Below the pieces are notes generated by a model, which ran no database searches, was not told the DNA's origin, and saw nothing but the letters and a program-made list of their open reading frames with translations. The position numbers and the translations under genes are program-made. A stretch of DNA of 64,000 nt from the NCBI GenBank assembly GCA_024244705.1, contig JAAEOK010000098.1, positions 62,001 through 126,000 on the forward strand, written 5' to 3'. Below, piece after piece: positions 44,670 through 62,734 of this stretch (position 1 is its first letter; the number at the start of each line of letters is the position of its first letter). Source of the DNA: Alphaproteobacteria bacterium (GTDB lineage Bacteria; Pseudomonadota; Alphaproteobacteria; JAAEOK01).

Positions 44670-45676
44670 CGGCTTTGGCACGGCGGCGGCGCGACGTGCA
44701 GCGTCGGCGGCACCCGTTCGTCGATCCAGCGACGCAGCTCGGCGAGGGCGGGATGGCTCAGATTGCGCTCCAACAAGCGCCAGACACGGGGAATATGGCG
44801 CAGATAGATCGGCTTCCCGTCGCGCCGGTCGAGGCGGGTGAAGATCCCGATCACCTTGGCGTGTCGCTGAGCGCCGAGCACCGCCATACTGGCGGTGAAG
44901 GCGTCGCGGTCGAGCTCCGGGAAGGCTTCGAGGTAGCGCGCGTGCATGGATTCGATCAGTACGCCCGATATATCCCGACGGGCATCCTCCAGCAGCGACA
45001 CCAGATCGTAGGGACAGGGTCCGATCACCGCATCCTGGAAATCGAGCAAGCCGCAGGCGGCCAGCCCTTGGCGGCGGTCGACGCGAAGCAGGTTGTCAAC
45101 ATGGTAGTCGCGCAGGACCAGCGAATCCGGAACGCCCCGCGCCACTGGTAGCATCTGGCGCCACAAATCGAGATAGTCGCTGCGGTCGGAATCGGTGACC
45201 GGCGTTCCCGTCACCGCCGGCAGGAACCAGTCGACGAGCAGCACCGCCTCGTCGAGCAGGCGCCCATCGTCGTAGGGCGGAACCGGGGCGTCGACCGACC
45301 CCGCATGCCGGTGCAGGGCGATCAGAACGTCGGTCGCCAGCGCGTAGAGGTTGGTCTCGTCGCCACCCTCGGCGAGGACGCGGGTAAAGGTCGCGTCGCC
45401 GAGGTCTTCGAGCAACAGGAACCCGTGCTCCGCATTCTCGGCCAGAATATCCGGCGCGCTGAAGCCGAGCCGGCGCAGATGGCGGTCGACAACGACAAAC
45501 GGGCGGACATCTTCCTGCGGCGGCGGCGCGTCCATCAGCATCGCCATGGCGCCATCGTCCTTGATCAACCGGATATAGCGCCGGAACGAGGCGTCGCCGT
45601 CGAGCGGCCGGCGTCGGGCCGAGCCCCAACCGGACGCGGCGAGGAAGCGATCGATGAGCTGTGCGCGGGGTGTCAC
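44666..45676 (-). CDS. amgK: Anomeric MurNAc/GlcNAc kinase, aminoglycoside-phosphotransferase fold
   Basis: Phosphorylates the anomeric hydroxyl of MurNAc to supply MurU in the recycling route. It is 336 aa with the APH-type kinase pattern: DASFRRYIRLIKDDGAMAML (nucleotide-binding lobe), LLLEDLGDATFTRVL (hinge), catalytic VLRDYHVDNLLRVD and metal-binding LLDFQDAVIGPCPYDLVSLL. The start is GTG at 45676, overlapping the tsaE stop as GTGA. The tsaE-amgK-murU order is typical of alphaproteobacteria. Confidence 0.91.
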   Translation of the reverse strand: MTPRAQLIDRFLAASGWGSARRRPLDGDASFRRYIRLIKDDGAMAMLMDAPPPQEDVRPFVVVDRHLRRLGFSAPDILAENAEHGFLLLEDLGDATFTRVLAEGGDETNLYALATDVLIALHRHAGSVDAPVPPYDDGRLLDEAVLLVDWFLPAVTGTPVTDSDRSDYLDLWRQMLPVARGVPDSLVLRDYHVDNLLRVDRRQGLAACGLLDFQDAVIGPCPYDLVSLLEDARRDISGVLIESMHARYLEAFPELDRDAFTASMAVLGAQRHAKVIGIFTRLDRRDGKPIYLRHIPRVWRLLERNLSHPALAELRRWIDERVPPTLHVAPPPCQSR

Positions 45677-46158
45677 GCCGGCGCATCCGCGATGATCGGC
45701 TCGAGCCGCCGCGACCACGAGCCGGGGCCGGACAGTCGCATCGTGCGGCGATCCGTGTCGGCATCGAAATCGAGCTCGATCCACAGACATTCCAGTGGCA
45801 GTGACACGCCCAGACGCTCCGGCCACTCGATCAGCGAGACGCCGCCGGCGAACGCTTCTTCGAGGCCGATTTCGAGCGCCTCGCGCGCCGATCCGAGCCG
45901 GTAGAGATCGAAATGCCACAACGTGAAGTCCGCCACATCATAGGTCTGGACCAGCGTAAAGGTTGGACTCGGCACGTCTTCGTCGGCGCGACCGAGGGTT
46001 CGAACGACGGCGCGCGCGAAAACGCTCTTGCCGCTACCGAGGGGTCCGGCAAGGGCGATCACGTCACCGGCTTCGAGGCACGGCGCGAAGCGGCGCGCAA
46101 AGTCACGGGTGGCCGCTTCGTCGACGAAAACCAGTTTGGCGATTTGGTTCGTTGGCAT
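45673..46158 (-). CDS. tsaE: tRNA threonylcarbamoyladenosine biosynthesis ATPase TsaE
   Basis: The ATPase needed with TsaB and TsaD to make t6A37 in tRNAs. It is 161 aa from the ATG at 46158, which has AGGTGG just before it; an ATG at 46197 would add 13 residues. It carries the P-loop LAGPLGSGKSVFARAVVRTL, VPSPTFTLVQTY, LWHFDLYRLGS and LIEWPERLG, all hallmarks of the family. It begins the minus-strand run tsaE-amgK-murU-addB-addA-trxA. Confidence 0.94.
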   Translation of the reverse strand: MPTNQIAKLVFVDEAATRDFARRFAPCLEAGDVIALAGPLGSGKSVFARAVVRTLGRADEDVPSPTFTLVQTYDVADFTLWHFDLYRLGSAREALEIGLEEAFAGGVSLIEWPERLGVSLPLECLWIELDFDADTDRRTMRLSGPGSWSRRLEPIIADAPA

Positions 46159-46486
46159 TGCCACCTGTGCGCCGAGCCCGATTTCCGGCCCATCCATCCG
46201 CCGCTTGGCGGCTTCCGGACGGGCCGAATCGGTGCCGCCGCGCGGTCTTGGTTGGTTCGTCCTTCGCGCCCCATCATCCGGTCCGCCAACGCCATGTCAA
46301 GCCGGGCACATCGCGCCGATGGTGCCGTTACCGCGTGGTTCGGCGGGACGCCTCTCAAGGTCCGGCTGCATGCCGGGGATGTGGTACGCGGCCCTATCCG
46401 CCCCGCCGGCGGGGTCGTCATCGTGTCTCGGCGATGAGCCAAATTTCGAGCCCGACCAATCTTCGGACAATTCGTGGATTCTGGCG
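46159..46486. other. Gene-free stretch between the LysR gene and tsaE (328 bp)
   Basis: I find no gene here. It should hold the promoter of the tsaE run and the end of the LysR transcript. A perfect 14-bp palindrome CCCCGCCGGCGGGG sits at 46401-46414. Open frames on both strands lack start signals. Confidence 0.45.
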
Positions 46487-47395
46487 CTACGCCGCCGCAC
46501 TTGAACCCGGCTCTATTCGTTGCGCGAGAAAATCAACAAACACGCGAACCTTGGGCGCCAGATGCCGGTTGTGGGCGAAGACCGCGTGGATCGGGGTGCT
46601 AGGCGGTATCAATGGAAAGTCTTCGAGCAAGGGCACCAGATGCCCACGTTTCAGGGCGTGGCCGATGATCCACGTCGGAACCATGATGATCCCCAGCCCG
46701 GCGAGGGCGGCGTCACGCAGGAATACGACGCTGTTCGCGTTGAGGCATCCCGATATCGGCACGTCAATCACACCCCGCGGCGACTGGAAGCTCCAACGGT
46801 TCTTTCCCAATTGAGTGCGGAATGACAGACAACTATGCGCTTCGAGCTCGCTGGGATGCCGAGGCGTGCCTCGCTTTGCAAGATAGGCGGGGCTGGCGCA
46901 CAGCACCGAGCGGCTCATCGCGATCTTGCGCGCGATCAGGCCGGAATCGTCCAGATGACCCATACGTATGGCGAGATCGATGCCACTGTCGACGAGATCC
47001 ATCGCGCCGGCGCCCAAAGAGAAGCGAAGCTGTATCGCGGGATAGCGGTCGAGGAATTCCGGCAGAATGGGCGCCACAAACGCGACCGCGAAATCCGCTT
47101 CCGCGGTGACGTGCAGGCGACCTGACGGCGTGTCGGTAAGCCGGCTCAACGCCAGTCGAGCCTCGTCAAGATCGGCGACGATGCGACGCGCGTGTTGGAA
47201 ATACATGTTGCCGGCCTCCGTGAGGCTCTGCTTGCGCGTGGTGCGGTGGAAGAGGCGCGTTCCGAGTTCGCTCTCCAACTGGGATACTTGGCGGGAAACC
47301 GAGGACGGCGTGATGCCAAGGAAGCGTGCCGCCGCGGAAAAGCTCCCGTCTTCGACGACACGAACGAATAGCGGCATATGCGAAAGTTCGCTCAT
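46487..47395 (-). CDS. LysR-family transcriptional regulator
   Basis: A 302-aa regulator. The N-terminal winged helix-turn-helix is clear (FVRVVEDGSFSAAARFLGIT, SSVSRQVSQLESELGTRLF followed by HRTTRKQSLTEAG), as is the periplasmic-binding-like effector domain (SGRLHVTAEADFAVAFVAPI, GIDLAIRMGHLDDSGLIARK, AALAGLGIIMVPTWI). It belongs to the large CrgA/DsdC-like LTTR group. It is divergent from the secreted cupin gene, its probable target, and an inverted repeat lies 5 bp from its first ATG. A second ATG at 47377 is possible. The effector is unknown. Confidence 0.92.
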   Translation of the reverse strand: MSELSHMPLFVRVVEDGSFSAAARFLGITPSSVSRQVSQLESELGTRLFHRTTRKQSLTEAGNMYFQHARRIVADLDEARLALSRLTDTPSGRLHVTAEADFAVAFVAPILPEFLDRYPAIQLRFSLGAGAMDLVDSGIDLAIRMGHLDDSGLIARKIAMSRSVLCASPAYLAKRGTPRHPSELEAHSCLSFRTQLGKNRWSFQSPRGVIDVPISGCLNANSVVFLRDAALAGLGIIMVPTWIIGHALKRGHLVPLLEDFPLIPPSTPIHAVFAHNRHLAPKVRVFVDFLAQRIEPGSSAAA

Positions 47396-47399
47396 TTAT

Positions 47400-47417
47400 G
47401 ATATATTCGCATATATC
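47400..47417. promoter_or_regulatory. Inverted-repeat operator candidate between LysR and cupin genes
   Basis: GATATAT (47400-47406) and ATATATC (47411-47417) are perfect inverted arms around TCGC. The site lies between the two divergent genes, against the LysR start and 89 bp before the cupin ATG. It fits a LysR-type site but is AT-rich and could overlap a -10 element. Confidence 0.5.
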
Positions 47418-47505
47418 TTTTGCGTTCTTCGATATTTTTCATGGAATTCGAATAGATCATGTTACGGCGTGCGACTCAACCGGAATCATGAAAGGAACAT
47501 CACCA

Positions 47506-47988
47506 ATGTCTGCCAGGAAAACCAAACCCATGATCGGTCTGCGGGAATTCGCCGCCGCCATCGTGATCGGGGTCTTTGCGATCGCACCGGCCACCGCATT
47601 CTCAAAATCGATCACCGCCGTCGAGCACGAAATCGGCGTGCCGGTCGACGACCTGAATTGGGTGCCATTCGCCGGAGGGACTGGACAGATGGCGCTGCTT
47701 TGGGAAAACACGGATAGCGGTGAGTATGCCATGCTCCTGAAGTTGCCGTCCGGTTGGACCCCTGGGGCGCACAGTCACAGCGCGGCCTATTACGGCGTCA
47801 CCCTGCAGGGAAACTGGGTGCATACCTTCGGCGATGGCGACAGCAGAACATTGCCGCCGGGTTCCTATGTCGTACAACCCGGCGAAGCGGTGCACGACGA
47901 CGCCTGCGCGGGCCCGGAAGACTGCATCCTCCTCATCCATCAGCACAAACCGTTCGACTTCACGCTGGCCCATGCTGCCACTGACTAG
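47506..47988 (+). CDS. Secreted cupin-fold protein
   Basis: A 160-aa precursor with a signal peptide (basic start, then FAAAIVIGVFAIAPATAFSK). The mature domain has cupin motif 1 features (GWTPGAHSHSAAYYGVTLQG) and motif 2 features (PPGSYVVQPGEAVHDDACAG), with histidines suited to bind a metal. It resembles DUF4437-type cupins, but I am not certain. AAGGA is about 9 nt before the ATG at 47506; an ATG at 47488 would place the SD inside the gene. It is probably periplasmic and controlled by the adjacent LysR regulator. Confidence 0.78.
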   Translation: MSARKTKPMIGLREFAAAIVIGVFAIAPATAFSKSITAVEHEIGVPVDDLNWVPFAGGTGQMALLWENTDSGEYAMLLKLPSGWTPGAHSHSAAYYGVTLQGNWVHTFGDGDSRTLPPGSYVVQPGEAVHDDACAGPEDCILLIHQHKPFDFTLAHAATD

Positions 47989-47997
47989 TCGAAACCT

Positions 47998-48040
47998 CCG
48001 ACATTTCCCCGCGATGGGTCCGGTCCCGGGGGAATGTCGG
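47998..48040 (+). terminator. Long hairpin after the cupin gene
   Basis: CCGACATTTCCCCG (47998-48011) pairs with CGGGGGAATGTCGG (48027-48040), 14 bp with one wobble and a 15-nt loop, ten bases after the stop. There is no proper T-run after it, so the terminator call is tentative. Confidence 0.45.
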
Positions 48041-48191
48041 CTTGTGCCGAAGCGCTGTCCGCTCAGTGGCGCCACCTTTGCGACAAAGCGCGGGCGGGGC
48101 ACCGGAATCGGTTTGCCCCCATGGGTGGCGATGCAACCAGGCTTCGAGCCGTACTTAACAACCATCGAGCAAAGAGCCTGCAATAATCCTA

Positions 48192-48228
48192 TTGACAGGA
48201 TTGCGTAATAATATAACTAATATGTTAT
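48192..48228 (+). promoter_or_regulatory. Promoter/operator of the ArsR-SRPBCC operon
   Basis: TTGACA at 48192-48197 is followed by an AT-rich stretch with several possible -10 hexamers. ATAAC (48213-48217) and GTTAT (48224-48228) form an inverted repeat around TAATAT that runs into the ArsR start codon. This is the usual layout of an autoregulated ArsR gene with a very short leader. Confidence 0.5.
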
Positions 48229-48598
48229 GGAACAATTAGGTTATATAAATCCGCAGGCGAATCTCGACGTGGTGTTTGCCGCGTTGGCCGACCCTACGCG
48301 GCGGGCAATATTGTCGCGACTTGCCGACGGTGAGGCTTCGGTGAATGAGATCGCAGCACCGTTTGAAATAAGCCAACCAGCGGTCTCTCGGCATCTGAAG
48401 GTGCTGGAACGGGCAGGGTTGATTGAGCGGGATGTTGACGAACAACGCCGCCCAGCGAGATTGAAGGCTGAAAACTTGGCGGTCGCCGTCGACTGGCTGG
48501 CCGAATTCAGAGCTTTTTGGGGGACCAGCTTCGACCAGCTCGATGAGGTCCTGATGCACATGAAACAAGCCGCAGCAAAGGATACAGGCGATGAGTGA
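48227..48598 (+). CDS. ArsR-family transcriptional regulator
   Basis: A 123-aa winged-helix repressor: FAALADPTRRAILSRLADGE, the recognition helix ISQPAVSRHLKVLERAGLIE and a RDVDEQRRPARLK wing. No cysteine metal-sensing motif is present, so it is the non-metal type that accompanies SRPBCC (AHSA1) proteins. Codons such as TTA and ATA occur early, unlike the neighbouring GC-rich genes. It shares 8 bp with the SRPBCC gene, so the pair is translated together. Confidence 0.92.
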   Translation: MEQLGYINPQANLDVVFAALADPTRRAILSRLADGEASVNEIAAPFEISQPAVSRHLKVLERAGLIERDVDEQRRPARLKAENLAVAVDWLAEFRAFWGTSFDQLDEVLMHMKQAAAKDTGDE

Positions 48599-49094
48599 AT
48601 TACCCGAGTACCTGCTTGACCGAGTATTCGATGCGCCCCGTGAAATGGTCTGGCGAGCATGGACCGACCCCGAATTGCTCTCGCGTTGGTATGGCCCCGG
48701 GGTAGAAACGATCATTCATGAATTTGATTTGAAACCCGGTGGGATGTGGCTCAACGAGATGAAATGGGGGGACAAATCCGATCTTAGCAAAATCGTATTC
48801 CAAGAAGTCGTGCCGGAAGAGAAGCTGGTTTGGCATCACTCTTCCACAGACTCCGATTGGAACATCATCACCAATCCCATGATGACGGACTGGCCTCGTG
48901 TGCTGTTGACGACCGTGACATTCGAGGACCTGGGCTCCAAGACCAAGGTGCGGCTGACGATGGTGCCCATCGAAGCGACCGACGCCGAAATCGCCTGTTT
49001 TGCCGGGGCCATGGCCGGTATGGATAAGGGCTGGGGCAGCGGCTATTCAGTACTGGATGAGCTGTTCGCAGAGCTACAGGCCAAAAATACATAG
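48591..49094 (+). CDS. SRPBCC (AHSA1-like) domain protein
   Basis: A 167-aa START/Bet v1-fold protein. It opens with LDRVFDAPREMVWRAWTDPE and LLSRWYGPG, continues with FDLKPGGMWLNEMKWGD, and closes with the long C-terminal helix GWGSGYSVLDELFAELQA. The fold makes a hydrophobic pocket for an unknown ligand. Pairing with ArsR is a common bacterial arrangement in which the regulator controls the SRPBCC gene. The overlap ATGAGTGA joins it to ArsR. It converges on divL. Confidence 0.92.
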   Translation: MSELPEYLLDRVFDAPREMVWRAWTDPELLSRWYGPGVETIIHEFDLKPGGMWLNEMKWGDKSDLSKIVFQEVVPEEKLVWHHSSTDSDWNIITNPMMTDWPRVLLTTVTFEDLGSKTKVRLTMVPIEATDAEIACFAGAMAGMDKGWGSGYSVLDELFAELQAKNT

Positions 49095-49223: not shown

Positions 49224-51659
49224 TCAGCCGACGGCCGGTATCGCCGTCGGCGATTCGTCCGTTGCCGACCGCGGCGGATCGTCCGGCAGGACGCAGGTCA
49301 CCGTCGATCCCTCGCCCGGCAGCGAACTGATCTCGACCCGCCCGCCGTGAAGCTGGACGATCTGCTTGACCAGCGACAGCCCTAGCCCGACCCCGGCGGC
49401 ACGACCGTCCGGGGTCCTGCCGCGCTCGAATTTCTCGAAGATTTTTTTCTGATCGGCGGCGTCGATACCCATTCCGGTGTCGGTGACGCCGATCGCCACT
49501 TGGTCGCCGTTGCGCCGTGCCGATATGGTGATGCGGCCGCCGGCGCCGGTAAACTTGACCGCGTTGCTGACCAGATTCATCACCGCTTGCTTGAGACGCC
49601 GCTCGTCGCCGACGATGTGTCCGAGATCCGGGGCGAGATCGAGGTCGAGTTCGGAGTTCGCCTGGCGCGCCCATTGGGTGCCGAGATCGAGAGTGGCCCC
49701 GAGCATGGTCGCCAGATCGATCTCGCCGAATTCGAGACTCAGCCTGCCGGCCTCGATCATTGACAGGTCGAGGATATTGTCGATCAACGCCAGTAGGCCC
49801 TGCGACGATTGCAGGATGCCGCCGACATATTCCTGTTGCCGTTCGTTCAGCTCGCCATAGAAATTCTTCTCGAGGATCTCGCTGAACCCGATGATCGTAT
49901 TGAGCGGCGTGCGGAGCTCATAAGAGACATTGGTCAGGAATTCGGTCTTGAGGCGATCGGTGGTCTCGAGCGCTTCGGCCTTATCGCGCAAGGCTCGTTG
50001 AACGCGAGAGGAATCGGTCGAATCGATATAGCTCAATAGGGTTCCGCCGTCGGGCAGAGGTACGAAGGCGAGATTGAGCACCGTGTCGTCGGTCCGTTCG
50101 AGTTCGCCGGAATAGACTTGGCGATCGGTCACCCGGGCGACCACCCGTTCCTTGTAACTGTCCCAGTTTTCCGTCTCGATGAAATGCCGGGAGCGGTCGA
50201 CGACCTCGCCAAAATGGGGACTGCTATCGAGGAAACTTTCCGGCAAGTCCCAGATGCGGGCAAAGGACGAATTGAACAATTTGATACGACCGTCGCCGCC
50301 GACCACCGCCACCCCCTCATAGAGATGGTCGAGGGTTTCTCGCTGAACGTCGATCAGGGTGTTGTAGGACCGTTCCAAGGCCAGCCGGTCGGTGACGTCC
50401 TCGTATAGAAACAGCAATCCGCCAAATGGATGGGGCGTCGTCAGGGTGCGCAGGGTGCGGCCGTCGGACAAATGCATCAGGTCTTCGACCGGGTCGATAA
50501 GGGTCATGAACTGGCGTTCCTGCTCCCTCTTCCAGGCCAAAAAATCGGCGAATTCCGGCAATCGCCGCCGCACCCGCAGCGCCTCCAAAACCTCGCCCAT
50601 GGATGGCTCGGCATAGAGAAACTCGCCGTCGAGTCCCCACAGATTGACGAACGCGCCGTTGAAGAACTTGAGCCGCTTGTCGGGGCCGTAGATCGCGACC
50701 GCGGTCGCCATGTGCTGCAGCACCTCGCCATGGGCGTCGACATGGCGTCTGAGCTCGACGCTTGCCTCCTCAAAGCCGGTGTGGTCGATCGCCAGACCAA
50801 GGACCATCGATGTCCCGGTCAACGGCTGCTCGGTGATTTCGAGCAAGCGGCGGGAACCGCCGATGACGACGTGCTGGTTCTGCGACAACGGCGTACCCAT
50901 GTCGCGCGCATCGTGCGCCAGCGCCTTGCCGCCGTTCTCGATCGCCGCGGCCGCGATCTCGCGCCCTTCGGCGACGACCTGTGCGACGCTGTCGGCCTCG
51001 ACCGCGGCGACGTAGGCATCGTTGCAGTCGATGATCGACAGCTCCTTGTCGCGGCACCAGATCGGAAACGGCAAGGCGTTCAAGGTTTCGCGGAGGATAT
51101 CCCGCTCGACCACCGCATCATGGCGCAAACGGAATTCGTCGCTGATGTCGCGAACCCGAACAACATCGACCTCGCGATCGACGGGGATCGCAACCCGTCG
51201 ACCGACCAGCGCGAAGCGGCGGTCGTTTTCGCCTTCGGTGCCACGCGCATCGAGCGCGAAGCCGACGCCGTCAGCGCGCAACCGGTCAATGGCGCCGCCA
51301 AGATTTGCGCCGTCGACGGTCTCCAGCGACCGGCACAGGGCGGCCACATCGATCGTTTCATCCGAACCCAAACCGAGCAACGCGCCAAGCCCTAAGGCCG
51401 TGACCCCGCCGTCGGGGCGGAATACCAACAGCGCGTCTTCCGGCGATTCCCGGGTGAGCGCCGCCGAGGCCAGTGGGATGAGCAAATCCCCGTGCTTGGA
51501 CAAGCGTCGCGCGCTCACCGAATAGGCCGAGACCGCCGCGACCGCAGCACCGACCGCGAGCAGCGAGAGCAGCCACGGCGCGGACACACCGCCATCGGCT
51601 GCCGCGGCGGGAGCGGAGAACAGCAGGAACGGGGCGGCGAAAGACAGCACGCGCCGCAT
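49224..51659 (-). CDS. divL: DivL-like PAS-domain pseudokinase of the cell-cycle phosphorelay
   Basis: An 811-aa membrane-anchored sensor. After an N-terminal signal/anchor and a second membrane segment (WLLSLLAVGAAVAAVSAYS) come several PAS domains (IWCRDKELSIIDCNDAYVAA, AIYGPDKRLKFFNGAFVNLW, VAVVGGDGRIKLFNSSFARI). The dimerisation helix and ATPase domain follow. The H-box reads FLTNVSYELRTPLNTIIGF, with Tyr580 (TAT codon at 49922-49920) where kinases have His, as in Caulobacter DivL. The ATPase boxes NLVSNAVKFT, DTGMGI and GVGLGLSLVKQ are intact. ATG 51659 is preferred to a TTG at 51725. In Caulobacter DivL controls CckA and so CtrA. Confidence 0.88.
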   Translation of the reverse strand: MRRVLSFAAPFLLFSAPAAAADGGVSAPWLLSLLAVGAAVAAVSAYSVSARRLSKHGDLLIPLASAALTRESPEDALLVFRPDGGVTALGLGALLGLGSDETIDVAALCRSLETVDGANLGGAIDRLRADGVGFALDARGTEGENDRRFALVGRRVAIPVDREVDVVRVRDISDEFRLRHDAVVERDILRETLNALPFPIWCRDKELSIIDCNDAYVAAVEADSVAQVVAEGREIAAAAIENGGKALAHDARDMGTPLSQNQHVVIGGSRRLLEITEQPLTGTSMVLGLAIDHTGFEEASVELRRHVDAHGEVLQHMATAVAIYGPDKRLKFFNGAFVNLWGLDGEFLYAEPSMGEVLEALRVRRRLPEFADFLAWKREQERQFMTLIDPVEDLMHLSDGRTLRTLTTPHPFGGLLFLYEDVTDRLALERSYNTLIDVQRETLDHLYEGVAVVGGDGRIKLFNSSFARIWDLPESFLDSSPHFGEVVDRSRHFIETENWDSYKERVVARVTDRQVYSGELERTDDTVLNLAFVPLPDGGTLLSYIDSTDSSRVQRALRDKAEALETTDRLKTEFLTNVSYELRTPLNTIIGFSEILEKNFYGELNERQQEYVGGILQSSQGLLALIDNILDLSMIEAGRLSLEFGEIDLATMLGATLDLGTQWARQANSELDLDLAPDLGHIVGDERRLKQAVMNLVSNAVKFTGAGGRITISARRNGDQVAIGVTDTGMGIDAADQKKIFEKFERGRTPDGRAAGVGLGLSLVKQIVQLHGGRVEISSLPGEGSTVTCVLPDDPPRSATDESPTAIPAVG

Positions 51660-51750: not shown

Positions 51751-53151
51751 TCAGTACCTGTAGTGGTCGGGTTTGAACGGACCCTCCGCCGGAACGTCGA
51801 TATAGGTGGCCTGCTTTTCGTTGAGCCGGGTCAGGTGAACGCCGAGCTTGTCGAGATGGAGCGCGGCAACCCGTTCATCGAGATGCTTGGGCAGGATGTA
51901 GACCTTGCGGTCATAGTTTTCCGGCCGCGTCCACAACTCGATCTGCGCCAACACTTGGTTGGTGAATGACATGCTCATCACGAAGCTGGGATGGCCGGTC
52001 GCGTTGCCGAGATTCACCAAGCGGCCCTCCGACAGCAGGATCAGCCGCTTGCCGTCGGGGAATTCGATCTCATCGACCTGCGGCTTGACGTTGTGCCATT
52101 TGTAGTTCTTGAGCGCGGCGATTTGGATCTCGGAATCGAAATGGCCGATATTGCAGACGATGGCACGGTGCTTCATGGCCCGCATATGATCGATCGTGAT
52201 GACGTCGATATTGCCGGTCGCGGTGACGAATATGTCGCCCAACAACGCCGCTTCCTCCATGGTCACGACCTCGAACCCTTCCATCGCCGCCTGCAGGGCG
52301 CAAATCGGGTCGATCTCGGTCACCAGAACCCGGCACCCGGCATTCTGCAGGGATTGCGACGAGCCCTTGCCGACCTCGCCGTATCCGCACACCACCGCGA
52401 CCTTGCCCGACATCATGACGTCGGTGCCGCGGCGGATACCGTCGACCAACGATTCGCGGCAGCCGTAAAGGTTGTCGAACTTCGACTTGGTGACGCTGTC
52501 GTTGACGTTGATGGCGGCGAACCGCAACCGGCCGTCGCGTTCCATCTGGTAGAGGCGATGGACCCCGGTCGTCGTCTCCTCGGTCACGCCCTTTATGCTT
52601 TCGGCCAAGGCCCCGTACCAGCCGGGCGATTCGGCGATCCGCTTGGCGATGGTGGCATAGAGGACCTCCTCCTCCTCGTTCTGCGGATCGTTGAGAACGG
52701 ATGGGTCGTGCTCCGCCATTGCACCGAGATGAACCAGCAGGGTCGCGTCGCCGCCATCGTCGAGGATCATGTTGGGGGTCTCGGCGGTGCCCCAATCGAA
52801 GATCCGGTGGGCGTAGTCCCAATACTCCTCGAGCGTCTCCCCCTTGACCGCGAACACCGGGGTGCCCCCGGCGGCGATGGCGGCCGCGGCATGGTCCTGG
52901 GTCGAATAGATATTGCAAGACGCCCAGCGCACGGTCGCGCCGAGCGCCTCCAGGGTCTCGATCAGCACCGCGGTCTGGATCGTCATATGGAGTGAGCCGG
53001 CGATGCGGGCGCCGGCCAAGGGCTGCGACGGGCCGAACTCCTCGCGCACCGCCATCAGGCCGGGCATCTCGGTTTCGGCGAGATCGATCTCCTTGCGGCC
53101 CCAATCGGCCAGGCCGATATCGGCGACGATGTAATCGGCGGTGTCAGTCAT
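51751..53151 (-). CDS. ahcY: Adenosylhomocysteinase
   Basis: Hydrolyses S-adenosylhomocysteine to adenosine and homocysteine, relieving methyltransferase inhibition. It is 466 aa with [20 protein letters not shown], the NAD-binding [50 protein letters not shown] and the conserved C-terminus [14 protein letters not shown] is 7 nt before the ATG at 53151. No SAH riboswitch is recognisable in the 77 bp upstream. It lies between the EI gene and divL on the same strand. Confidence 0.97.
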
Positions 53152-53228
53152 AGGGTTTCTCCCAGGGGAATTTCGTGCGCGGTGATAGCAGGCGCGACCG
53201 GCCGCCTCAAGCGCCAATCAGGATCGAT

Positions 53229-55043
53229 TCAGGCCAATGCGTTGAAGTCGTCGAGGAGCGTCGCGATGCGGCCGTAATCCCACTGGTCCATGATCAGCCG
53301 TGCGCGCCGTGTCGCGGCATTCAGATCGAGGTTACGGATGCGCTGCTTGACCCGCGGCAGGGACTGGGCGGTCATCGACAGATCGCGGATACCGAGACCG
53401 AGGAGCAGAGCCGTATAGCGCGCGTCGCCGGCCATCTCACCACACAGACAAACCGGGATTCGGGCCCGCAGCGCGGCCTCGGTGGAGAACTGAATCAGAC
53501 GCAGCACCGCCGGGTGCAGCGGATTGTAGAGATGGGCCACCTGATCGTCGCCGCGGTCGATTGCCAGCGTGTACATGGTCAGGTCGTTGGTGCCGATGGC
53601 GAAGAAATCCGCTTCGTGAGCGAGTGCATCGGCGGCGAGCGCGGCGCCCGGCACCTCGATCATCACGCCCAAGGGCGGCAGCGGATCGGCGAACTTGACG
53701 CGGCGGCGGTTGAGCCGCGCGGCCACCCGCTTCATGCGCTCGCGCACCTGTTTGAGCTCGCCCAGGTTGGAGATCATCGGCAGCAGGACACGGATCGGAC
53801 CGTGGGCTCCGGCGCGCAGCATCGCCGCCAATTGGGCGTCGAGCAGGCGCTCGTCTTTCAGCGACAGCCGAATGGCCCGGAGCCCGAGCGCCGGGTTCAC
53901 GCTTTCGCCGATATGCCCGCCCAGCGAATAGGCCAGCTTGTCGCCGCCGACGTCGAGGGTGCGCATGGTGATCTCGGGTCCTCCCATTCCGCCGACCACC
54001 TCCCGCAACGCTTGATACTGCTCCTCTTCGTCGGGCAGCGTGTCCCGGTTCATATAGAGGAACTCGGTGCGCAACAGACCGACGCCCTCGGCGCCCATGC
54101 GGACCGCGTTCTCCATTTCGCGCGGCAGCTCGACGTTGGCCTGCAAACGAATGGCAACATCGTCGAGGGTGATCGCCGGCAACGCGCCGAGCCGCGCCAG
54201 GTTGCGCTCCTCGCGGCGCCACGCCCGGCCGCGACTGGTATAGTCCGCCACGGTCTCGTCGCCCGGATCGACGATCACCACGCCGTCCGTACCGTCGACG
54301 ATGACCGTGGCCCCGGGTTCGACCAGCCCGACCAGCCCGGGGACGCCGAGCACCGCCGGCAGACCTAGTGAACGCGCCATGATCGCGGTATGGCCTTCGA
54401 CACCGCCGAGGATGGTGGCGAACCCGGCGATCCCGGCGGGGTCGAGGAGCGCGGTGTCGGCCGGCGTTAGTTCCTCGGCGATGATCACCGAACCTTCCGC
54501 CACCCGTGAAAATGCCTGGTAGGGCGTATCGGTGAGGTTGCGGATGAGCCGGTTGCCGACCTCGCGGATGTCGTCGATGCGGGCCGCGAGATAGGCATCT
54601 TCCATCGCCGCGAAGCCATGGGCGATCTCGGAAATCACCGCCTGCACCGCGGCTTCGGCGTTGAGCGCGTCACGGCTGATGCGCTCGGCCACGCCACGCG
54701 TCAGGCGCGAACCCGACAGCATCTGACCGTGGGCATCGAGAAGGAAACCCATCTCTTCGGCCGCCGCCGGTGGCAGGTCTTCGGTCTTCGTTCTGAGCCG
54801 ATCGACCTGGCGGCGGGAGGTCACGACAGCGGCTTCGAACCTAGCCTGCTCGCCGGCAATGGCGGCTTTTGGAATACGGTATTCCGGCACGTCGGGGGCG
54901 CCGATTTCGCGGACATGGGTTCGGCCGATGGCGATACCGGCCGAGACACCGAGGCCGGTCAGGCGGCGCTCCTTCGCCGCCTTCTTGGCGCCGCCCTTGC
55001 GGCCCGGATGACGTTTCTCCTTAGCCTTCGCCAAAACGATCAC
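53229..55043 (-). CDS. Phosphoenolpyruvate-protein phosphotransferase (EI), without GAF domain
   Basis: The first enzyme of the PTS relay, moving phosphate from PEP to HPr. It is 604 aa. A lysine-rich leader (KRHPGRKGGAKKAAKERR) precedes the HPr-binding domain. The phospho-histidine is in GGVEGHTAIMARSLGLPAVL (His218), and the PEP-binding barrel has GVGLLRTEFLYMNRDTLP, LPMISNLGEL, FFAIGTNDLTMYTLAIDR and VCLCGEMAGD. No N-terminal GAF domain is present, so it is EI-like rather than classical EI-Ntr. The GTG at 55043 overlaps the HPr end by 23 bp. Confidence 0.93.
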   Translation of the reverse strand: MIVLAKAKEKRHPGRKGGAKKAAKERRLTGLGVSAGIAIGRTHVREIGAPDVPEYRIPKAAIAGEQARFEAAVVTSRRQVDRLRTKTEDLPPAAAEEMGFLLDAHGQMLSGSRLTRGVAERISRDALNAEAAVQAVISEIAHGFAAMEDAYLAARIDDIREVGNRLIRNLTDTPYQAFSRVAEGSVIIAEELTPADTALLDPAGIAGFATILGGVEGHTAIMARSLGLPAVLGVPGLVGLVEPGATVIVDGTDGVVIVDPGDETVADYTSRGRAWRREERNLARLGALPAITLDDVAIRLQANVELPREMENAVRMGAEGVGLLRTEFLYMNRDTLPDEEEQYQALREVVGGMGGPEITMRTLDVGGDKLAYSLGGHIGESVNPALGLRAIRLSLKDERLLDAQLAAMLRAGAHGPIRVLLPMISNLGELKQVRERMKRVAARLNRRRVKFADPLPPLGVMIEVPGAALAADALAHEADFFAIGTNDLTMYTLAIDRGDDQVAHLYNPLHPAVLRLIQFSTEAALRARIPVCLCGEMAGDARYTALLLGLGIRDLSMTAQSLPRVKQRIRNLDLNAATRRARLIMDQWDYGRIATLLDDFNALA

Positions 55044-55317
55044 TCACCATCTTCGCCAATGCGGCGACCGCCGCCGCCGCCTCGCGTCCGCGCGCCACGA
55101 TTTCGATGGCGCACCCCGGTCCGGCCGCCAGCATCATCAGCCCCATGATCGATCCGCCCGAGACTTCGATGCCGCTGCGGATGACCGTGATCTCGGCGTC
55201 GAAAGTCTCGGCCAATTTGACGAATCGGGCGGCCGCACGGGCATGCAGACCGCGATCGTTGACGACTTCAACCGACCGCCGCACGGTGGCGATCGCCGGC
55301 TCTTGCGTGGCATCCAT
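55021..55317 (-). CDS. ptsH: HPr phosphocarrier protein
   Basis: The small phosphocarrier between EI and EIIA proteins. It is 98 aa with the phospho-histidine in NDRGLHARAAARFVKLAE (His25 here, His15 in E. coli numbering). The HprK-type serine is in VSGGSIMGLMMLAA (Ser56, equivalent to Ser46). Both sites present fit dual control by EI and by the HprK encoded nearby. The ATG at 55317 lies 7 bp after the EIIA stop. Confidence 0.95.
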   Translation of the reverse strand: MDATQEPAIATVRRSVEVVNDRGLHARAAARFVKLAETFDAEITVIRSGIEVSGGSIMGLMMLAAGPGCAIEIVARGREAAAAVAALAKMVSDRFGEG

Positions 55318-55324
55318 GGCGCGC

Positions 55325-55729
55325 CTACGAATCTTCCTGCAACAGGCTGGAGGCGATGTTGATGTATTTGCGGCCGGCTTCCTGGGCTTCGGCCGCCGCC
55401 TTCGCCAGATCTCCGGCCTCGCGGGCGCTGGCCAGCTTGATGAGCATTGGTAGATTGATGCCGGCGATGACCTCGACGTTCGCGTTTTCCATAACCGAGA
55501 TTGCCAAGTTCGACGGCGTGCCGCCAAACATATCGGTAAGCAGCACGACACCGTCGCCGCCGTCGACCGTCTCGATACTGTCGAGGATGTCCTTGCGCCG
55601 TTTTTCCATATCGTCGTCGGGACCGATGCAAATTGCCGCGACCCGTTCCTGCGGCCCGACGACATGTTCGAGAGCGGCGATGAATTCTTCCGCTAGGCGG
55701 CCGTGGGTAACGAGGACCATTCCTATCAT
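55325..55729 (-). CDS. PTS EIIA component, mannose family
   Basis: A 134-aa EIIA-Man domain: MIGMVLVTHGRLAEEFIAAL with the phospho-histidine His9, GDGVVLLTDMFGGTPSNLA and NLPMLIKLASAR. No EIIB, IIC or IID genes are nearby, so it is not part of a sugar transporter; this stand-alone EIIA with HPr and HprK is the regulatory PTS of alphaproteobacteria, which senses PEP status. It lies between rapZ and the HPr gene. Confidence 0.93.
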   Translation of the reverse strand: MIGMVLVTHGRLAEEFIAALEHVVGPQERVAAICIGPDDDMEKRRKDILDSIETVDGGDGVVLLTDMFGGTPSNLAISVMENANVEVIAGINLPMLIKLASAREAGDLAKAAAEAQEAGRKYINIASSLLQEDS

Positions 55730-55747
55730 CGGCCAATCCCTTTCAAA

Positions 55748-56656
55748 CTATCGATGGCTCAAGTCGCGGTGGCGCACGGTCACCGGGACACCGGTTTGAC
55801 GCAAAGTCGCCGCCAGTCGTTCCGCGACATAGACCGACCTATGCCGTCCGCCGGTACATCCCGCCGCGATCGTCAGGTAGCTCTTCCCTTCCCGCTCATA
55901 ACGCGGCAGCAGAGGCAACAACAACTCGGTCAAGTTGTCAAAAAAAGTTTTGAAGCCCGGCGACTCGGCAATGAACTCGGCGACCCGCTGATCGAGTCCG
56001 GTAAGCGGCCGCAAGGCGGAATCGTAGTACGGATTGTCGAGAAACCGCACGTCAAACACCAGATCGGCACCACGCGGCAGGCCCTTGCCATAAGAGAACG
56101 AGGTCACGATGACGTTGAGCCCGGGGGTGTAATCGCGTGCAAAACGGTGGGCCAGATCGCTCCGCAGGTCGGCAAGGCTGGAGGTCGTCGTATCGATGAC
56201 CAGATCGGCTCGCTCACGCACCGCATTGAGCACGATTCGTTCGTCCCGGATCCCGTCGGCGAGCGGCCGGTCCATGGCCAGCGGATGGCGGCGACGGGTC
56301 TCGGTGAAGCGTCGGCCGAGCACTTCATCGTCACAGTCGATAAAGATCAGCATGACATCGAGGCCGGGGGTGTTCTTCAGGCGGTCGATCTCGCGGGTAA
56401 GCCGGGCGACGCCGAAATCGCGGGTCCGGATGTCAACCCCAATGGCCGCCGGGCGCGACAGCTCTTTTTCGCTGTGGACCAGGGTCTCAAGAAGAGTCAG
56501 CGGCAGATTGTCGACCGCTTCATAGCCTTGATCCTCGAGCGCGCGCAGGACCGAGCTTCTGCCGGCGCCCGACATGCCCGTTATCAGCAATACCGGGGTC
56601 GTCGCGGCCTCTTTGAGCGCCTCCGCCGCCATCGGCGTGTCATCCGTGGTCGTCAT
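55748..56656 (-). CDS. rapZ: RNase adapter protein RapZ
   Basis: An ATP/GTP-binding protein. In enterobacteria it directs cleavage of the GlmZ RNA and controls amino-sugar synthesis; the target here is unknown. It is 302 aa. The Walker A is LLITGMSGAGRSSVLRALED with Arg in place of the usual Lys, as I recall for alphaproteobacterial members. DLVFDVRFLDNPYYDSALRP and AAGCTGGRHRSVYVAERLA are the conserved C-terminal blocks. Its start overlaps the hprK end by 17 bp. Confidence 0.94.
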   Translation of the reverse strand: MTTTDDTPMAAEALKEAATTPVLLITGMSGAGRSSVLRALEDQGYEAVDNLPLTLLETLVHSEKELSRPAAIGVDIRTRDFGVARLTREIDRLKNTPGLDVMLIFIDCDDEVLGRRFTETRRRHPLAMDRPLADGIRDERIVLNAVRERADLVIDTTTSSLADLRSDLAHRFARDYTPGLNVIVTSFSYGKGLPRGADLVFDVRFLDNPYYDSALRPLTGLDQRVAEFIAESPGFKTFFDNLTELLLPLLPRYEREGKSYLTIAAGCTGGRHRSVYVAERLAATLRQTGVPVTVRHRDLSHR

Positions 56657-57086
56657 CGCCAGGCACTATACCACGCCCAATTGCCGCTGCCGCGAGCCTA
56701 AGCTTGGCCGGCGCCGACGGCTCGAACGGCGCCACCGCGAGCCGCGGCACGGACACGCCCGCGATCACTGCGCTGTCGGGCGACGGCAAACGATCGATCT
56801 GTTCCGGCGCCATCAAATCGCAAACCAGCGCGACCCGGACGGAGGCAACCGCCGGCATCCGCATGATGCCGAGACCACGCACCTCGATCCGGCCGGCCAG
56901 GGCTTTCGGCGCACTGGCCCGCAGGCCGTCATCCGCCGCCGCCAGGTCGACGCGATCATCGGCGACCAGGCGTCCACCACCGTCGATCAGGCGCAGCGCG
57001 AGGTCGCTCTTGCCGCTACCCGGGGCTCCGCGGAGCAGGAGTCCGATCGCCGCGACCTCGATGCATGTGCCGTGGATTTGGGCCAC
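56640..57086 (-). CDS. hprK: HPr kinase/phosphorylase, short alphaproteobacterial form
   Basis: Phosphorylates HPr on serine. It is 148 aa, only the C-terminal catalytic half of the Gram-positive enzyme: IHGTCIEVAAIGLLLRG and the Walker A APGSGKSDLALRLID, then RLVADDRVDL. The capping region seen in HprK hexamers is reduced (GRIEVRGLGIM). The start is GTG at 57086 with TAGGAA 7 nt upstream; longer readings would run into chvG. The chvG-hprK-rapZ-EIIA-HPr order is the standard alphaproteobacterial arrangement. Confidence 0.93.
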   Translation of the reverse strand: MAQIHGTCIEVAAIGLLLRGAPGSGKSDLALRLIDGGGRLVADDRVDLAAADDGLRASAPKALAGRIEVRGLGIMRMPAVASVRVALVCDLMAPEQIDRLPSPDSAVIAGVSVPRLAVAPFEPSAPAKLRLAAAAIGRGIVPGDDDHG

Positions 57087-57118
57087 CGCCGTTCCTACCC
57101 GCGCCGGTCGCCGCCGGC

Positions 57119-58807
57119 TCAGACCGCCGGCATCAGCACGGTGAAGCACGCGCCGATGACGACGCCTTCGCGATGCCGGTTGACAGCCTCGATGGTTCCG
57201 CCATGGGCCTCGACGATCTGCCGCGAAATGCTGAGGCCGAGGCCCGAGTGAATGCCGAATTTCTCGCCCTCCGGGCGCTCGCTGTAGAAGCGCTCGAAAA
57301 TGTCGTCCTCCTTTCCTTCGGGGATGCCCAGTCCGTCGTCGGCAATTTCGACGCGAACCTTGTCGCCGGAGCGGGCGGCGGAGACGACGATCTTGCCGTC
57401 GGGCGGAGAGAACGAGATCGCGTTTTCGATCAGGTTGCGGAACACCTGAACCATCTGCCCGTCCTGCGCCTCGACCACCAATGCGCCGGGATCGATGTCG
57501 AAGACGAGCTCGGGGCCGCTGTCGGCGGTCTCACTGTGGATGTTGGAAAGCGTTTTCAGCATCGACCCGACGTCGACCCGTTCTGACTGCACGCGTGACA
57601 GTTCGGCATCCAGGCGCGATGCATTGGAGATGTCCGTGATCAGCCGGTCGAGGCGTTGCACATCCTCGAGGATGATCGTCATCAGCCGCCGCTGCTGGTC
57701 CGGGTCCTTGACCCGGGCGGCGGTCTCGACGGCGCTCCGCAAGGAGGACAGCGGGTTCTTGATTTCGTGGGCGACATCGGCGGCGAAGCGTTCGATCGCA
57801 TCCATCCGCCGCCACAGTGCCTCGGTCATCTCCCGCAACGCGCCCGACAGGTCGCCGACCTCGTCATCGCGGGAGGTGAAATCGGGGATCGTGACCTTGC
57901 GGCCGCGGACTCGTTTCATCCGTTCCGCCGCCGAGGCCAGCCGCCGGATCGGGTGGGCGATGGTGCCGGCGAGATAGATCGACAGGATCACGGTAATGGT
58001 GAGGGCGACGGCGAACACCTTGAGAATGTCGAGGCGGACCGCGCGCACCGTGCGCTCGATCTCACGGCTATCCATGGTCAGCATGAGGGCGCCCAGAACC
58101 CGCCGGTAGCGCTGCACCGGAACGGCAACGCTGAGCACGAGATGGTCTTCCGGATGACGCCGCACCTCGGCGGTGAAATCGCCCGATAGGGCGGATACCA
58201 CCTCGTGATAGTCGCGGGCCAACGGCACCGGTGTTTCGATATAGAGCGGCGGCACCTCGTCGGGGCCGACCAGGGCCAACAACCGGCCATAGAGATCGAC
58301 GAAGAACCGTCCTATGCCGTCGCCGCTTTCGGGCGGCGGCAACTCCTCGACGATTACGGCCCGGCTGGCGCCGGCCAGCTGCCGGCTGTCGGCGACCAGA
58401 TTGCCGCCGGGATCGAACAGTCGCGCCCGAACCCGTCCCGACTCCGTCAGCCGCCGCACGAGCTGTTGCGCGATGACCTGGTCGAGCGCCCTTTGCACCC
58501 GGCGATCCTCGCTGAACGCACCTTCGGCTATGGCGCCCGCGATCAGTTCGCCCTGGGTTTTCAGGCCTTCGAGCGAGGTCTGCACCAGACTGCGCTGGTA
58601 CTCGCCGAGATAGAGCAGCCCGGCGACCAGGATGGCCAGGGCGAGGATATTGACCGCGGTGATGCGGAGCGTGATCGGAGAAAGCCGCCGCCGCTTGCGG
58701 CGCGGTCCGGTCGTCCATTCGGCATCGGCCACCCGTTCGGTTCCCATATTCCGGGATCGGCCCGCCGCCGCATCGGGCTGTGACCGATCACCACCGTCGG
58801 GTGCCAT
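57119..58807 (-). CDS. chvG: Sensor histidine kinase ChvG/ExoS
   Basis: The membrane kinase of the ChvG/ChvI system, which in rhizobia and Agrobacterium responds to acidity and cell-wall stress. It is 562 aa. TM1 is near residues 50-67 (ILALAILVAGLLYLG), with a periplasmic sensor of about 200 residues and TM2 FAVALTITVILSIYLAG. A HAMP domain follows, then the H-box RFAADVAHEIKNPLSSLRSA with an intact His. The ATPase boxes are NLIENAISFS, DDGLGIP and GLGLSISRQIVEAHGG. It starts 9 bp after chvI and ends 33 bp before hprK. Confidence 0.94.
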   Translation of the reverse strand: MAPDGGDRSQPDAAAGRSRNMGTERVADAEWTTGPRRKRRRLSPITLRITAVNILALAILVAGLLYLGEYQRSLVQTSLEGLKTQGELIAGAIAEGAFSEDRRVQRALDQVIAQQLVRRLTESGRVRARLFDPGGNLVADSRQLAGASRAVIVEELPPPESGDGIGRFFVDLYGRLLALVGPDEVPPLYIETPVPLARDYHEVVSALSGDFTAEVRRHPEDHLVLSVAVPVQRYRRVLGALMLTMDSREIERTVRAVRLDILKVFAVALTITVILSIYLAGTIAHPIRRLASAAERMKRVRGRKVTIPDFTSRDDEVGDLSGALREMTEALWRRMDAIERFAADVAHEIKNPLSSLRSAVETAARVKDPDQQRRLMTIILEDVQRLDRLITDISNASRLDAELSRVQSERVDVGSMLKTLSNIHSETADSGPELVFDIDPGALVVEAQDGQMVQVFRNLIENAISFSPPDGKIVVSAARSGDKVRVEIADDGLGIPEGKEDDIFERFYSERPEGEKFGIHSGLGLSISRQIVEAHGGTIEAVNRHREGVVIGACFTVLMPAV

Positions 58808-58816
58808 GCCTGGGTC

Positions 58817-59512
58817 CTATTCTTCCTTGTAGCGGTAGCCGATCCCGTACAGCGTTTCGATGTGGCCGAAATCGACGTCGACAACTTTGAACTTCTTGCG
58901 CAACCGCTTGATGTGACTGTCGATCGTGCGGTCGTCGACATAGATGTGCTCGCCATAGGCGGCGTCCATCAGCTGGTCGCGGCTCTTGACCAGGCCGGGG
59001 CGCTTGGCCAGCGCCTGCAGAATGAGGAACTCGGTCACCGTGAGCGTCACCACATCACCCTTCCAGGTGCAGACGTGGCGCGCCGGATCGAGCACGAGCT
59101 CGCCCCGGACGATGGCGCTCTCGGCCTTGTCCGGACCTTCGCCGACCGGGTCCGAGCGGCGCAGCAGGGCGCGGATGCGCTCGATCAGCAGGCGCTGTGA
59201 GAACGGCTTGCGAATATAATCGTCGGCGCCCATGCGCAGACCGAGCACTTCGTCGACCTCTTCGTCCTTCGAGGTCAGGAAAATCACCGGCATGTTCGAC
59301 TTGCGCCGCAGCCGGTTCAGCAATTCCATGCCGTCGAGACGCGGCATCTTGATGTCGAGAATGGCGAGGTCCGGCGGCCGCGCCGAAATCCCGTCGAGCG
59401 CCTCCGCGCCGTCCTTGTAGGTTCGAACCTTGAAGCCTTCGGCCTCCAGTGCCATGGTCACCGAGGTCAGGATATTCCGGTCGTCATCGACGAGCGCAAT
59501 GGTCTTAGACAT
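58817..59512 (-). CDS. chvI: Response regulator ChvI, OmpR family
   Basis: A DNA-binding partner of ChvG. It is 231 aa. The receiver domain starts [18 protein letters not shown], with the phospho-aspartate in [17 protein letters not shown] and the conserved Lys in [13 protein letters not shown]. The winged helix carries [20 protein letters not shown] and [16 protein letters not shown], ending GIGYRYKEE. The gene opens the chvI-chvG-hprK-rapZ-PTS run and faces the PCuAC gene divergently across 173 bp. Confidence 0.96.
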
Positions 59513-61123: not shown

Positions 61124-62734
61124 GTGCCGCAGGTCGGACCTGTCATCAGCAAATTCGGATTGGACACTTGCGGAGTATCCGATTACCGGACCGCGTATTG
61201 GAATCTGACGACACCATTGCTCTATGAGCAGGCGATCCGGCGCGACGAAGGCCATATCGCGGCCGGTGGCGCCTTCGTCGCGTTGACCGGCCAACACACC
61301 GGTCGCGCGCCCAAGGACAAGTTCCTCGTCGACGAGCCGTCGAGCCGCGACGACATCTGGTGGGGCGACATCAACCGGCCGATCACGGAAGAGAAATTCG
61401 ACGCCTTGCTGGCGCTGGTTCTGTCCTATTACGGCGATCGCGACCTGTTCGTGCGCGATTGTTTCGCCGGCGCCGATGCCGATTACCGGCTGCGCGTGCG
61501 CGTGGTCACCGTCGAGGCGTGGCACAACATGTTCGCGCGCAATATGTTCCTGCAGCCGCCGGCCGCCGAACTGGCCGAATTCGAGCCCGATTTCACCATC
61601 CTGCAAGCACCGAAACTGCAGGCCGATCCGGCGCTGCACGGCACCGATTCGGGGGTCTTCATCGTCGTCCATTTCGCGCGCCGCATGGTCCTGATCGGCG
61701 GCAGCGGCTATGCCGGGGAGATCAAGAAGTCGGTCTTCGGGTTGCTCAATTATCTGCTGCCCGAACGCGGCGTACTGCCGATGCATTGTTCGGCCAACAT
61801 CGGCCGGGGCGGTGACACGGCCATCTTCTTCGGCCTATCCGGCACCGGCAAGACGACGCTTTCGGCCGACGGCACACGAAAACTGATCGGCGACGACGAA
61901 CATGGCTGGTCGGAGAACGGCATCTTCAACTTCGAGGGCGGATGCTACGCCAAGGTGATCCGGCTGAGCCCCGACGCCGAGCCCGAGATTCACGCCACCA
62001 CCGGGCGATTCGGCACCATCCTCGAGAACGTCGTCATGGATCCGATAAACGGCGTGCTCGATTTCGACGACGCCTCGCACACCGAAAACACGCGTGCGTC
62101 CTACCCCATCGACTATATTCCCGACATCGCCGAGGACGGCCGCGGCGGACACCCCGAGAACATCGTCATGCTGACCGCCGACGCCTTCGGCGTCCTGCCG
62201 CCGATATCGCGGCTGACCGCCGCGCAGGCGATGTATCACTTCCTGTCCGGCTACACCGCCCGCGTCGCCGGCACTGAGAAGGGTCTCGGCAGCGAGCCCC
62301 AGGCGACCTTTTCGACCTGTTTCGGCGCGCCGTTTATGCCGCGTCATCCGTCGGTCTATGCCCGGTTGCTGGGCGAGAAGATCCAACGCCACGGCGCCCG
62401 CTGCTGGCTCGTCAATACCGGCTGGTCGGGCGGCAGCTTCGGCGTTGGCGAGCGCATGAAAATTGCCCACACCCGGGCCATGGTGCGGGCCGCGCTGGAC
62501 GGGCAGCTCACCGAAGTGGCGACGACGCCGCATCCCGATTTCGGCTTGGCGATGCCCGATTCGTGCCCCGAGGTGCCGGGCGAGGTGCTCAACCCCAAGA
62601 ACACCTGGGCCGACAAGTCAGCCTACGATACGACGGCGCGCGAGTTGACCAAACGGTTCGAGACCAACTTCAAGCAGTTCGAGCCCTATGTCGATGACGG
62701 CGTCAAGGCGGCCGGCATTCACGCCGCGGCCTGA
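61124..62734 (+). CDS. pckA: Phosphoenolpyruvate carboxykinase (ATP)
   Basis: The gluconeogenic enzyme making PEP from oxaloacetate. It is 536 aa with the substrate segment TGQHTGRAPKDKF, GLLNYLLPERGVLPMHCSAN, the P-loop FFGLSGTGKTTLSADGTRKL, the metal site DDEHGWSENGIFNFEGGCYA and NTGWSGGSFGVGERMKI. The start is GTG at 61124 with GGAGG 6 nt upstream. pckA near chvI/chvG is typical of alphaproteobacteria, and its product PEP feeds the PTS relay encoded here. Confidence 0.97.
   Translation: MPQVGPVISKFGLDTCGVSDYRTAYWNLTTPLLYEQAIRRDEGHIAAGGAFVALTGQHTGRAPKDKFLVDEPSSRDDIWWGDINRPITEEKFDALLALVLSYYGDRDLFVRDCFAGADADYRLRVRVVTVEAWHNMFARNMFLQPPAAELAEFEPDFTILQAPKLQADPALHGTDSGVFIVVHFARRMVLIGGSGYAGEIKKSVFGLLNYLLPERGVLPMHCSANIGRGGDTAIFFGLSGTGKTTLSADGTRKLIGDDEHGWSENGIFNFEGGCYAKVIRLSPDAEPEIHATTGRFGTILENVVMDPINGVLDFDDASHTENTRASYPIDYIPDIAEDGRGGHPENIVMLTADAFGVLPPISRLTAAQAMYHFLSGYTARVAGTEKGLGSEPQATFSTCFGAPFMPRHPSVYARLLGEKIQRHGARCWLVNTGWSGGSFGVGERMKIAHTRAMVRAALDGQLTEVATTPHPDFGLAMPDSCPEVPGEVLNPKNTWADKSAYDTTARELTKRFETNFKQFEPYVDDGVKAAGIHAAA

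Follow-up and report, generated by a model that had tools for sequence, protein, structure and literature searches.

A DivL ortholog with tyrosine at the phospho-acceptor site, and the variability of that site across its family

The gene at 49224–51659 on the minus strand of the window, the 64,000-nucleotide stretch of alphaproteobacterial DNA analyzed here, encodes a protein that by sequence is an ortholog of DivL and, in itself, an ordinary new member of a known family. DivL is an alphaproteobacterial cell-cycle regulator with the build of a histidine kinase, in which tyrosine replaces the active histidine; to our knowledge it is the best-studied bacterial pseudokinase and is known chiefly from Caulobacter. 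We consider the window protein to be a pseudokinase that reads DivK and steers CckA, and give this explanation as a whole a probability of roughly 0.93. The first-pass annotation was right in its observation and essentially right in its interpretation; the part worth following is the variable residue at the acceptor site, together with the DivLs that carry histidine there and the docking triad of Caulobacter. The window adds a lineage with a full DivL-DivK-CckA-ChpT-CtrA-SciP set, natural variants at the site, such as His, Phe, Val, Ser and Cys, some of them from DivK-bearing genomes, make the role of the tyrosine testable, and our survey suggests that the Caulobacter docking surface is atypical.

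Domain layout and assignment to DivL

The divL frame is uninterrupted by stops in the minus-strand translation, from the ATG at 51659 to the stop at 49224, and comprises the following features.

49224–51659, minus strand: divL, 811 amino acids, ATG at 51659 (Pfam HisKA, HATPase_c and PAS; PDB match; tree)
51495–51575, minus strand: membrane helix, residues 29–55 (AlphaFold2 helix; hydropathy peak at 23–50)
51147–51434, minus strand: PAS-like module 1, residues 76–171 (model; no Pfam PAS match here)
50784–51062, minus strand: PAS-like module 2, residues 200–292 (model; weak Pfam PAS match at 189–223)
50397–50702, minus strand: PAS-like module 3, residues 320–421 (model; Pfam PAS_8 at 313–362)
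50022–50315, minus strand: PAS module 4, residues 449–546 (model; Pfam PAS_7 at 443–554)
49752–50018, minus strand: DHp dimerization and docking helices, residues 548–636, including Arg583, Asn587, Phe592 and Tyr611 (model; HisKA; docking positions)
49920–49922, minus strand: TAT codon of Tyr580, where the phospho-accepting histidine is expected (aligns with Tyr550 of 4q20)
49284–49727, minus strand: CA ATPase-like domain, residues 645–792 (model; HATPase_c)

Residue 580 is a tyrosine encoded by codon 49922–49920, inside NVSYELRTPLNTIIGFSE, and both codon and translation confirm the H-box VSYELRTPL reported at first pass. The glutamate directly after Tyr580 is retained, and a conserved histidine one turn away was looked for in the window DivL sequence and not found. 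Tyr580 is not a sequencing error, since tyrosine occurs in 117/146 readable family members in a class survey that was not conditioned on the residue. The ATPase-domain boxes were also described correctly as complete, with N (NLVSNAVKF), G1 (DTGMGI), F (FEKFER) and G2 (GVGLGLSL) all read in the sequence, and the Pfam matches are strong for both HATPase_c (1.8e-30) and HisKA (3.3e-19).

The AlphaFold2 model, built with 46 sequences, has a mean pLDDT of 85 and a pTM of 0.43, which makes the relative placement of its domains unreliable; the PAS-like modules were assigned from the order of strands and helices within it. The predicted structure contains four such modules, where at least three had been counted before. 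Of two hydrophobic segments proposed at the N terminus, one is a confident helix (residues 29–55), but the first stretch (about residues 3–21) is hydrophobic with low confidence in the model and hydropathy profile, and resembles a signal peptide or weak segment. The overall order of N-terminal helix, PAS modules, DHp and CA, from the model and Pfam, fits DivL.

By sequence, the closest match of solved structure is Caulobacter DivL (4q20, 2.3e-49), which leads the other PDB matches by nine orders of magnitude (runner-up 3.2e-40), so the protein is not closer to a non-DivL kinase family. In Foldseek, 4q20 is among the top matches of the predicted model: it takes ranks 6 and 7, aligned across DHp-CA, with a TM-score of 0.75 to the target and 41% identity at rank 6. 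Searches for orthologs returned matches at 1e-60 in 23 of 41 genomes and at 1e-55 in 164 of 289 genomes of the class. All DivL-like rows form one clade in a FastTree tree of 155 rows, with Caulobacter DivL within it and the outgroup of seven histidine kinases (six from this genome, one from G007) outside (support 94). Caulobacter DivL groups there with two Caulobacterales-like rows and G182 (support 100), the label Caulobacterales-like being based on the 61% identity of family f64 to 4q20 over the kinase region. The tree has long branches, and 39 of its 152 inner branches have support below 80, so that its inner order is loose. An IQ-TREE subset, in which a Caulobacterales-like row takes the place that 4q20 holds in the FastTree set, separates DivL from the kinase paralogs with an SH-aLRT of 97. 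The DivL-type identity claimed at first pass is borne out by the PDB match, by the common clade with Caulobacter DivL, apart from the histidine kinases of this genome, and by the ahcY-divL-tsaE neighborhood shared with Brucella.

DivL is single-copy in the 20 genomes that were rescored in depth, since each has one match covering PAS and kinase regions; second-best matches reach at best 1.8e-58 and mostly cover the kinase domain only. DivL is single-copy in this genome too, where the next kinase scores 6.7e-51, again over the kinase domain only.

Variation at the acceptor site

The acceptor site was read across 150 DivL-like genomes, of which 117 have tyrosine, 29 have another residue and 4 lack a readable kinase half, none being aligned. 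The alternatives are His (7), Thr (4), Gln (4), Phe (3), Gly (2), Val (2) and one each of Cys, Ser, Glu, Arg, Lys, Asp and Leu; the residue of G126 (Gln), read at the edge of a broken alignment, is uncertain. Of the 164 matched genomes among 289, 147 entered the statistics, three more were read later and 14 weak matches were left out. A scan of contigs with a pattern that admitted no acceptor residue but Tyr, Cys or Ser gave 80 loci, all with Tyr; these are excluded from the residue counts and were used solely for structure alignment and synteny examples. The family is less uniform at this site than the literature has it, the available part of PMC4211667 describing tyrosine throughout DivL with a single exception, alanine in Magnetospirillum. 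The first-pass annotation had called tyrosine diagnostic of DivL; it is typical but not diagnostic, since 29/146 readable members differ, 7 of them with histidine.

Several members depart further from the usual form. One family (L035, L232 and L284, from G021, G152 and G250) has Glu, Gly and Asp at the site; both members whose ATPase motifs were read show erosion of them, and no DivK passed the cut-off. DivL of G140 (L286) occupies two frames, a PAS part of 543 amino acids and a kinase part of 280, with the tyrosine retained. Four DivL frames (L037, L236, L240 and L241) have no aligned kinase half. Two of these four genomes, G193 and G286, still have a DivK that scores above the cut-off, contrary to the published rule linking PAS-only DivL with loss of DivK.

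At a DivK cut-off of 1e-42, tyrosine rows fall into 100 DivK-positive, 13 negative and 4 unclear, and non-tyrosine rows into 11 from DivK-positive and 18 from DivK-less genomes. By family, 62/70 tyrosine families are DivK-positive versus 5/15 of the others (Fisher p 2.5e-5 for 85 families with one genome each; 1e-5 to 0.002 over four DivK cut-offs). The Fisher test includes the three late genomes, which the tree-based independent-pairs test excludes, and scores unclear DivK as negative. The pairs test found about 2 pairs for, 0 against and about 10 with no difference (median p 0.5), and a causal link is accordingly not claimed. Considered together, these results are suggestive of an association of tyrosine with DivK at the residue level, not demonstrably beyond shared ancestry. 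The kinase half of DivL has been linked with DivK in print, in the portions available of PMC2877005 and PMC9430884.

Histidine at the site occurs with every kinase motif intact in family f42 (G041, G167 and G264; L182, L188 and L191), where it is encoded by CAT. The f42 divL adjoins ahcY and tsaE, DivK in these genomes has 77–78% identity, and no second full-length DivL was found in them. We counted five changes to or from histidine on the tree, and family f6 contains a fully supported sister pair made up of a tyrosine row (G005) and a histidine row (G239). Reversion was rejected as a firm claim, as the AU test allows f42 to stand beside the histidine-kinase outgroup (p 0.61), and f42 plus f93 likewise (p 0.19). 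A title-level literature search on DivL found no paper devoted to DivLs with natural histidine.

DivK docking, the CtrA circuit and competing readings

A CtrA-type circuit had been implied for this organism from DivL, and its components were located on contig C85: CtrA at 79295–79966 (413.7 bits against a cut-off of 350), ChpT at 78788–79153, SciP at 80243–80479, DivK at 190041–190406 (70% identity to Caulobacter DivK) and CckA, a hybrid kinase with a receiver, at about 81829–83976. CckA scores 701 bits on the Brucella CckA model, which is under the cut-off of 1000 yet far ahead of that model's other matches. The genes chpT, ctrA, sciP, a DksA-like gene and cckA lie within about 6 kb (L281; G000 C85:76000-88000). 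Contamination of the assembly, estimated at 4.4%, is an unlikely source of the circuit genes because the 4-mer profile of C85 agrees with that of the window (ranks 1 and 4 of 201 loci). The search proposed at first pass for cckA, chpT, ctrA, divK and pleC therefore yielded the first four, and for pleC candidates only: three PleC/DivJ-like kinases (L002, L003 and L005) match DivJ/PdhS models over the kinase domain alone. No GcrA (PF07750) turned up in the assembly, which is 97% complete, with the Caulobacter control positive. Judged from its gene content, the organism has the inferred CtrA circuit.

The surface on which Caulobacter DivL docks DivK differs in several residues in the window protein. 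Of nine docking positions compared, three are identical (Tyr550, Arg553 and Gly561 in Caulobacter numbering), whereas Caulobacter Thr557, Tyr562, Leu565, His579, Ala582 and Ala601 correspond to Asn587, Phe592, Ile595, Tyr611, Gly614 and Ser633. The residues at 583, 587, 592 and 611 are Arg583, Asn587, Phe592 and Tyr611, with asparagine at the position of Thr557. According to the available text of PMC4211667, T557N, Y562A and H579E each lowered DivK~P binding in Caulobacter, T557N alone by 8–15-fold. The residues that the window DivL has at these three positions prevail among 113 DivK-positive genomes (3 unreadable): at position 587, 86 genomes have Asn and 21 have Thr; at position 592, 100 have Phe and 7 have Tyr; and at position 611, 102 have Tyr and 4 have His. 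The docking arginine is retained in 110/110 of the readable DivK-positive genomes and Gly591 in 109/110. Thr/Tyr/His is found in both Caulobacterales-like rows, and Asn/Phe/Tyr recurs in the DivJ/PleC-like kinases L002, L003 and L005 of this genome. The Caulobacter triad is therefore the outlier, and the window DivL, which shares its docking set with those kinases, probably docks DivK with the geometry of an ordinary kinase, unlike the Caulobacter variant, as far as the aligned residues indicate. By eye, the DivK contact residues named in PMC4211667 are the same in the DivK of this genome.

We tentatively raise a broader reading, which we think less probable than not by some distance: the tyrosine of DivL may not be a fixed one-way loss, the f42 protein may be a working kinase that kept its histidine from the ancestor or regained it through a single base change (TAT to CAT), and the Thr/Tyr/His triad may be local to Caulobacter, most DivLs docking DivK through Asn/Phe/Tyr. 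If so, the phosphospecific DivL of Caulobacter would not be representative of the family.

In the mechanism we favor, the window DivL would be a membrane-anchored PAS-sensor pseudokinase of this alphaproteobacterium, in which Tyr580 would prevent phosphate uptake on the DHp helix. The response regulator DivK would dock on the DHp/CA region and be read there, and the PAS region would relay this reading to the hybrid kinase CckA, which would then drive ChpT and CtrA. Unbound DivL would hold CckA in kinase mode, with CtrA on; binding of DivK~P would shift CckA towards phosphatase, with CtrA off. Loss of catalysis, docking and control of CckA are carried over from Caulobacter; sequence, domain order, orthology, neighborhood and the presence of CckA, ChpT, CtrA, SciP and DivK were seen in this analysis. 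Caulobacter DivL is without kinase or phosphatase activity, its catalytic domain is dispensable, its DHp docking surface binds DivK~P, its PAS domains are needed for phosphospecificity and it controls CckA, as reported in the sections available of PMC4211667. Against the mechanism weigh the limited agreement of the docking positions (three of nine), the score of CckA under the cut-off of its model, and Hyphomonas neptunium, where DivL is essential and DivK dispensable (PMC7200025, in part), so that DivK is not necessarily the chief input of DivL.

The most serious competitor holds that the protein is DivL by descent but mainly a PAS sensor that tunes CckA, its kinase-like half docking DivK weakly or not at all. 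Three of the four positions at which mutations reduce DivK~P binding in Caulobacter differ in the window DivL, and DivL is kept in lineages without DivK, often with a decayed or absent kinase half (excerpts of PMC9430884 and PMC2877005). We nevertheless regard this reading as unlikely: DivK is present here, with 70% identity to Caulobacter DivK and the contact residues that excerpts of PMC4211667 name, Asn/Phe/Tyr is the majority set in DivK-positive genomes and in the DivJ/PleC-like kinases here, and the docking arginine is invariant wherever DivK is present.

Two further readings seem far less probable. The complete-looking ATPase boxes, and the words "tyrosine kinase" still in the PDB title of 4q20, would suit an active kinase that phosphorylates itself on Tyr580; we consider this very improbable, given that Caulobacter DivL has neither kinase nor phosphatase activity and a dispensable catalytic domain (PMC4211667, available part) and that relatives have His, Phe, Val, Ser, Cys, Thr and others in place of the tyrosine. 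Slightly less credible still is an ordinary PAS histidine kinase, unrelated to DivL, that recently lost its histidine. No DivL model is among the best 25 NCBIfam matches, and those at the top represent kinases in general and all fall short of the cut-off, but full-length tyrosine relatives across the class, the conserved neighborhood and the clade with Caulobacter DivL refute it. The pseudokinase that reads DivK and steers CckA remains our preferred explanation.

Gene neighborhood and comparison with known systems

The genes around divL carry names that we take from sequence recognition (ptsP, HPr, EIIA, rapZ, hprK and the rest), save where Pfam was run.

51751–53217, minus strand: ahcY, directly upstream of divL, with some 90 bases between its stop and the ATG of divL; relatives keep the order
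53229–59512, minus strand: ptsP, HPr, EIIA, rapZ and hprK, then a ChvG/ChvI-like pair, upstream (ORFs)
57119–58807, minus strand: ChvG/BvrS-like kinase (ORF and Pfam)
58817–59512, minus strand: ChvI/BvrR-like regulator (ORF)
61124–62734, opposite strand: pckA-like gene, beyond the ChvG/ChvI-like pair
45673–46197, minus strand: tsaE, downstream, parted from divL by an inserted block (tblastn places it beside DivL in relatives)

Across the 147 genomes, ahcY adjoins divL in 82/136 with sufficient upstream sequence and tsaE in 59/141 with downstream sequence; divL lies beside one or the other in 102/147 and beside both in 40/130. All these counts are lower bounds, as the flanks span only about 0.5–3 kb. 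LysR, cupin, ArsR and AHSA1-like genes lie between divL and tsaE at 46487–49094 of the window; this block looks like a lineage-specific insertion, divL and tsaE being adjacent in many relatives. In G040 (L032, 940–3909), a Ser-type DivL is fused to TsaE in one open frame of 990 amino acids (Pfam TsaE at 834–955, 2.2e-34), the sole case among the DivL frames checked. A literature search for divL together with ahcY or tsaE found one paper, PMC9491525, whose accessible part gives the Brucella abortus bvrRS operon as ptsM, ptsO, a pseudogene, ahcY, one gene, divL and tsaE, and reports an action of Brucella divL on DivK and CckA.

Among known systems, Caulobacter crescentus DivL (4q20; PMC4211667, as far as available) shares with the window protein an identical VSYELRTPL, the N-terminal helix, PAS before DHp-CA, complete ATPase boxes and the docking arginine and glycine. 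The window divL adjoins ahcY, whereas in two Caulobacterales-like genomes divL does not. Compared by gene order, Brucella abortus is like the window in its ChvG/ChvI (BvrS/BvrR) pair, PTS genes, ahcY, divL and tsaE (PMC9491525, in part), but the window differs in having the four-gene block between divL and tsaE. The short DivL of Rhodobacterales and DvlL of Anaplasmataceae, likened here by published description, share this family's PAS region; as the available portions of PMC9430884 and PMC4426382 describe them, they are without the kinase half and DivK, both of which are present here.
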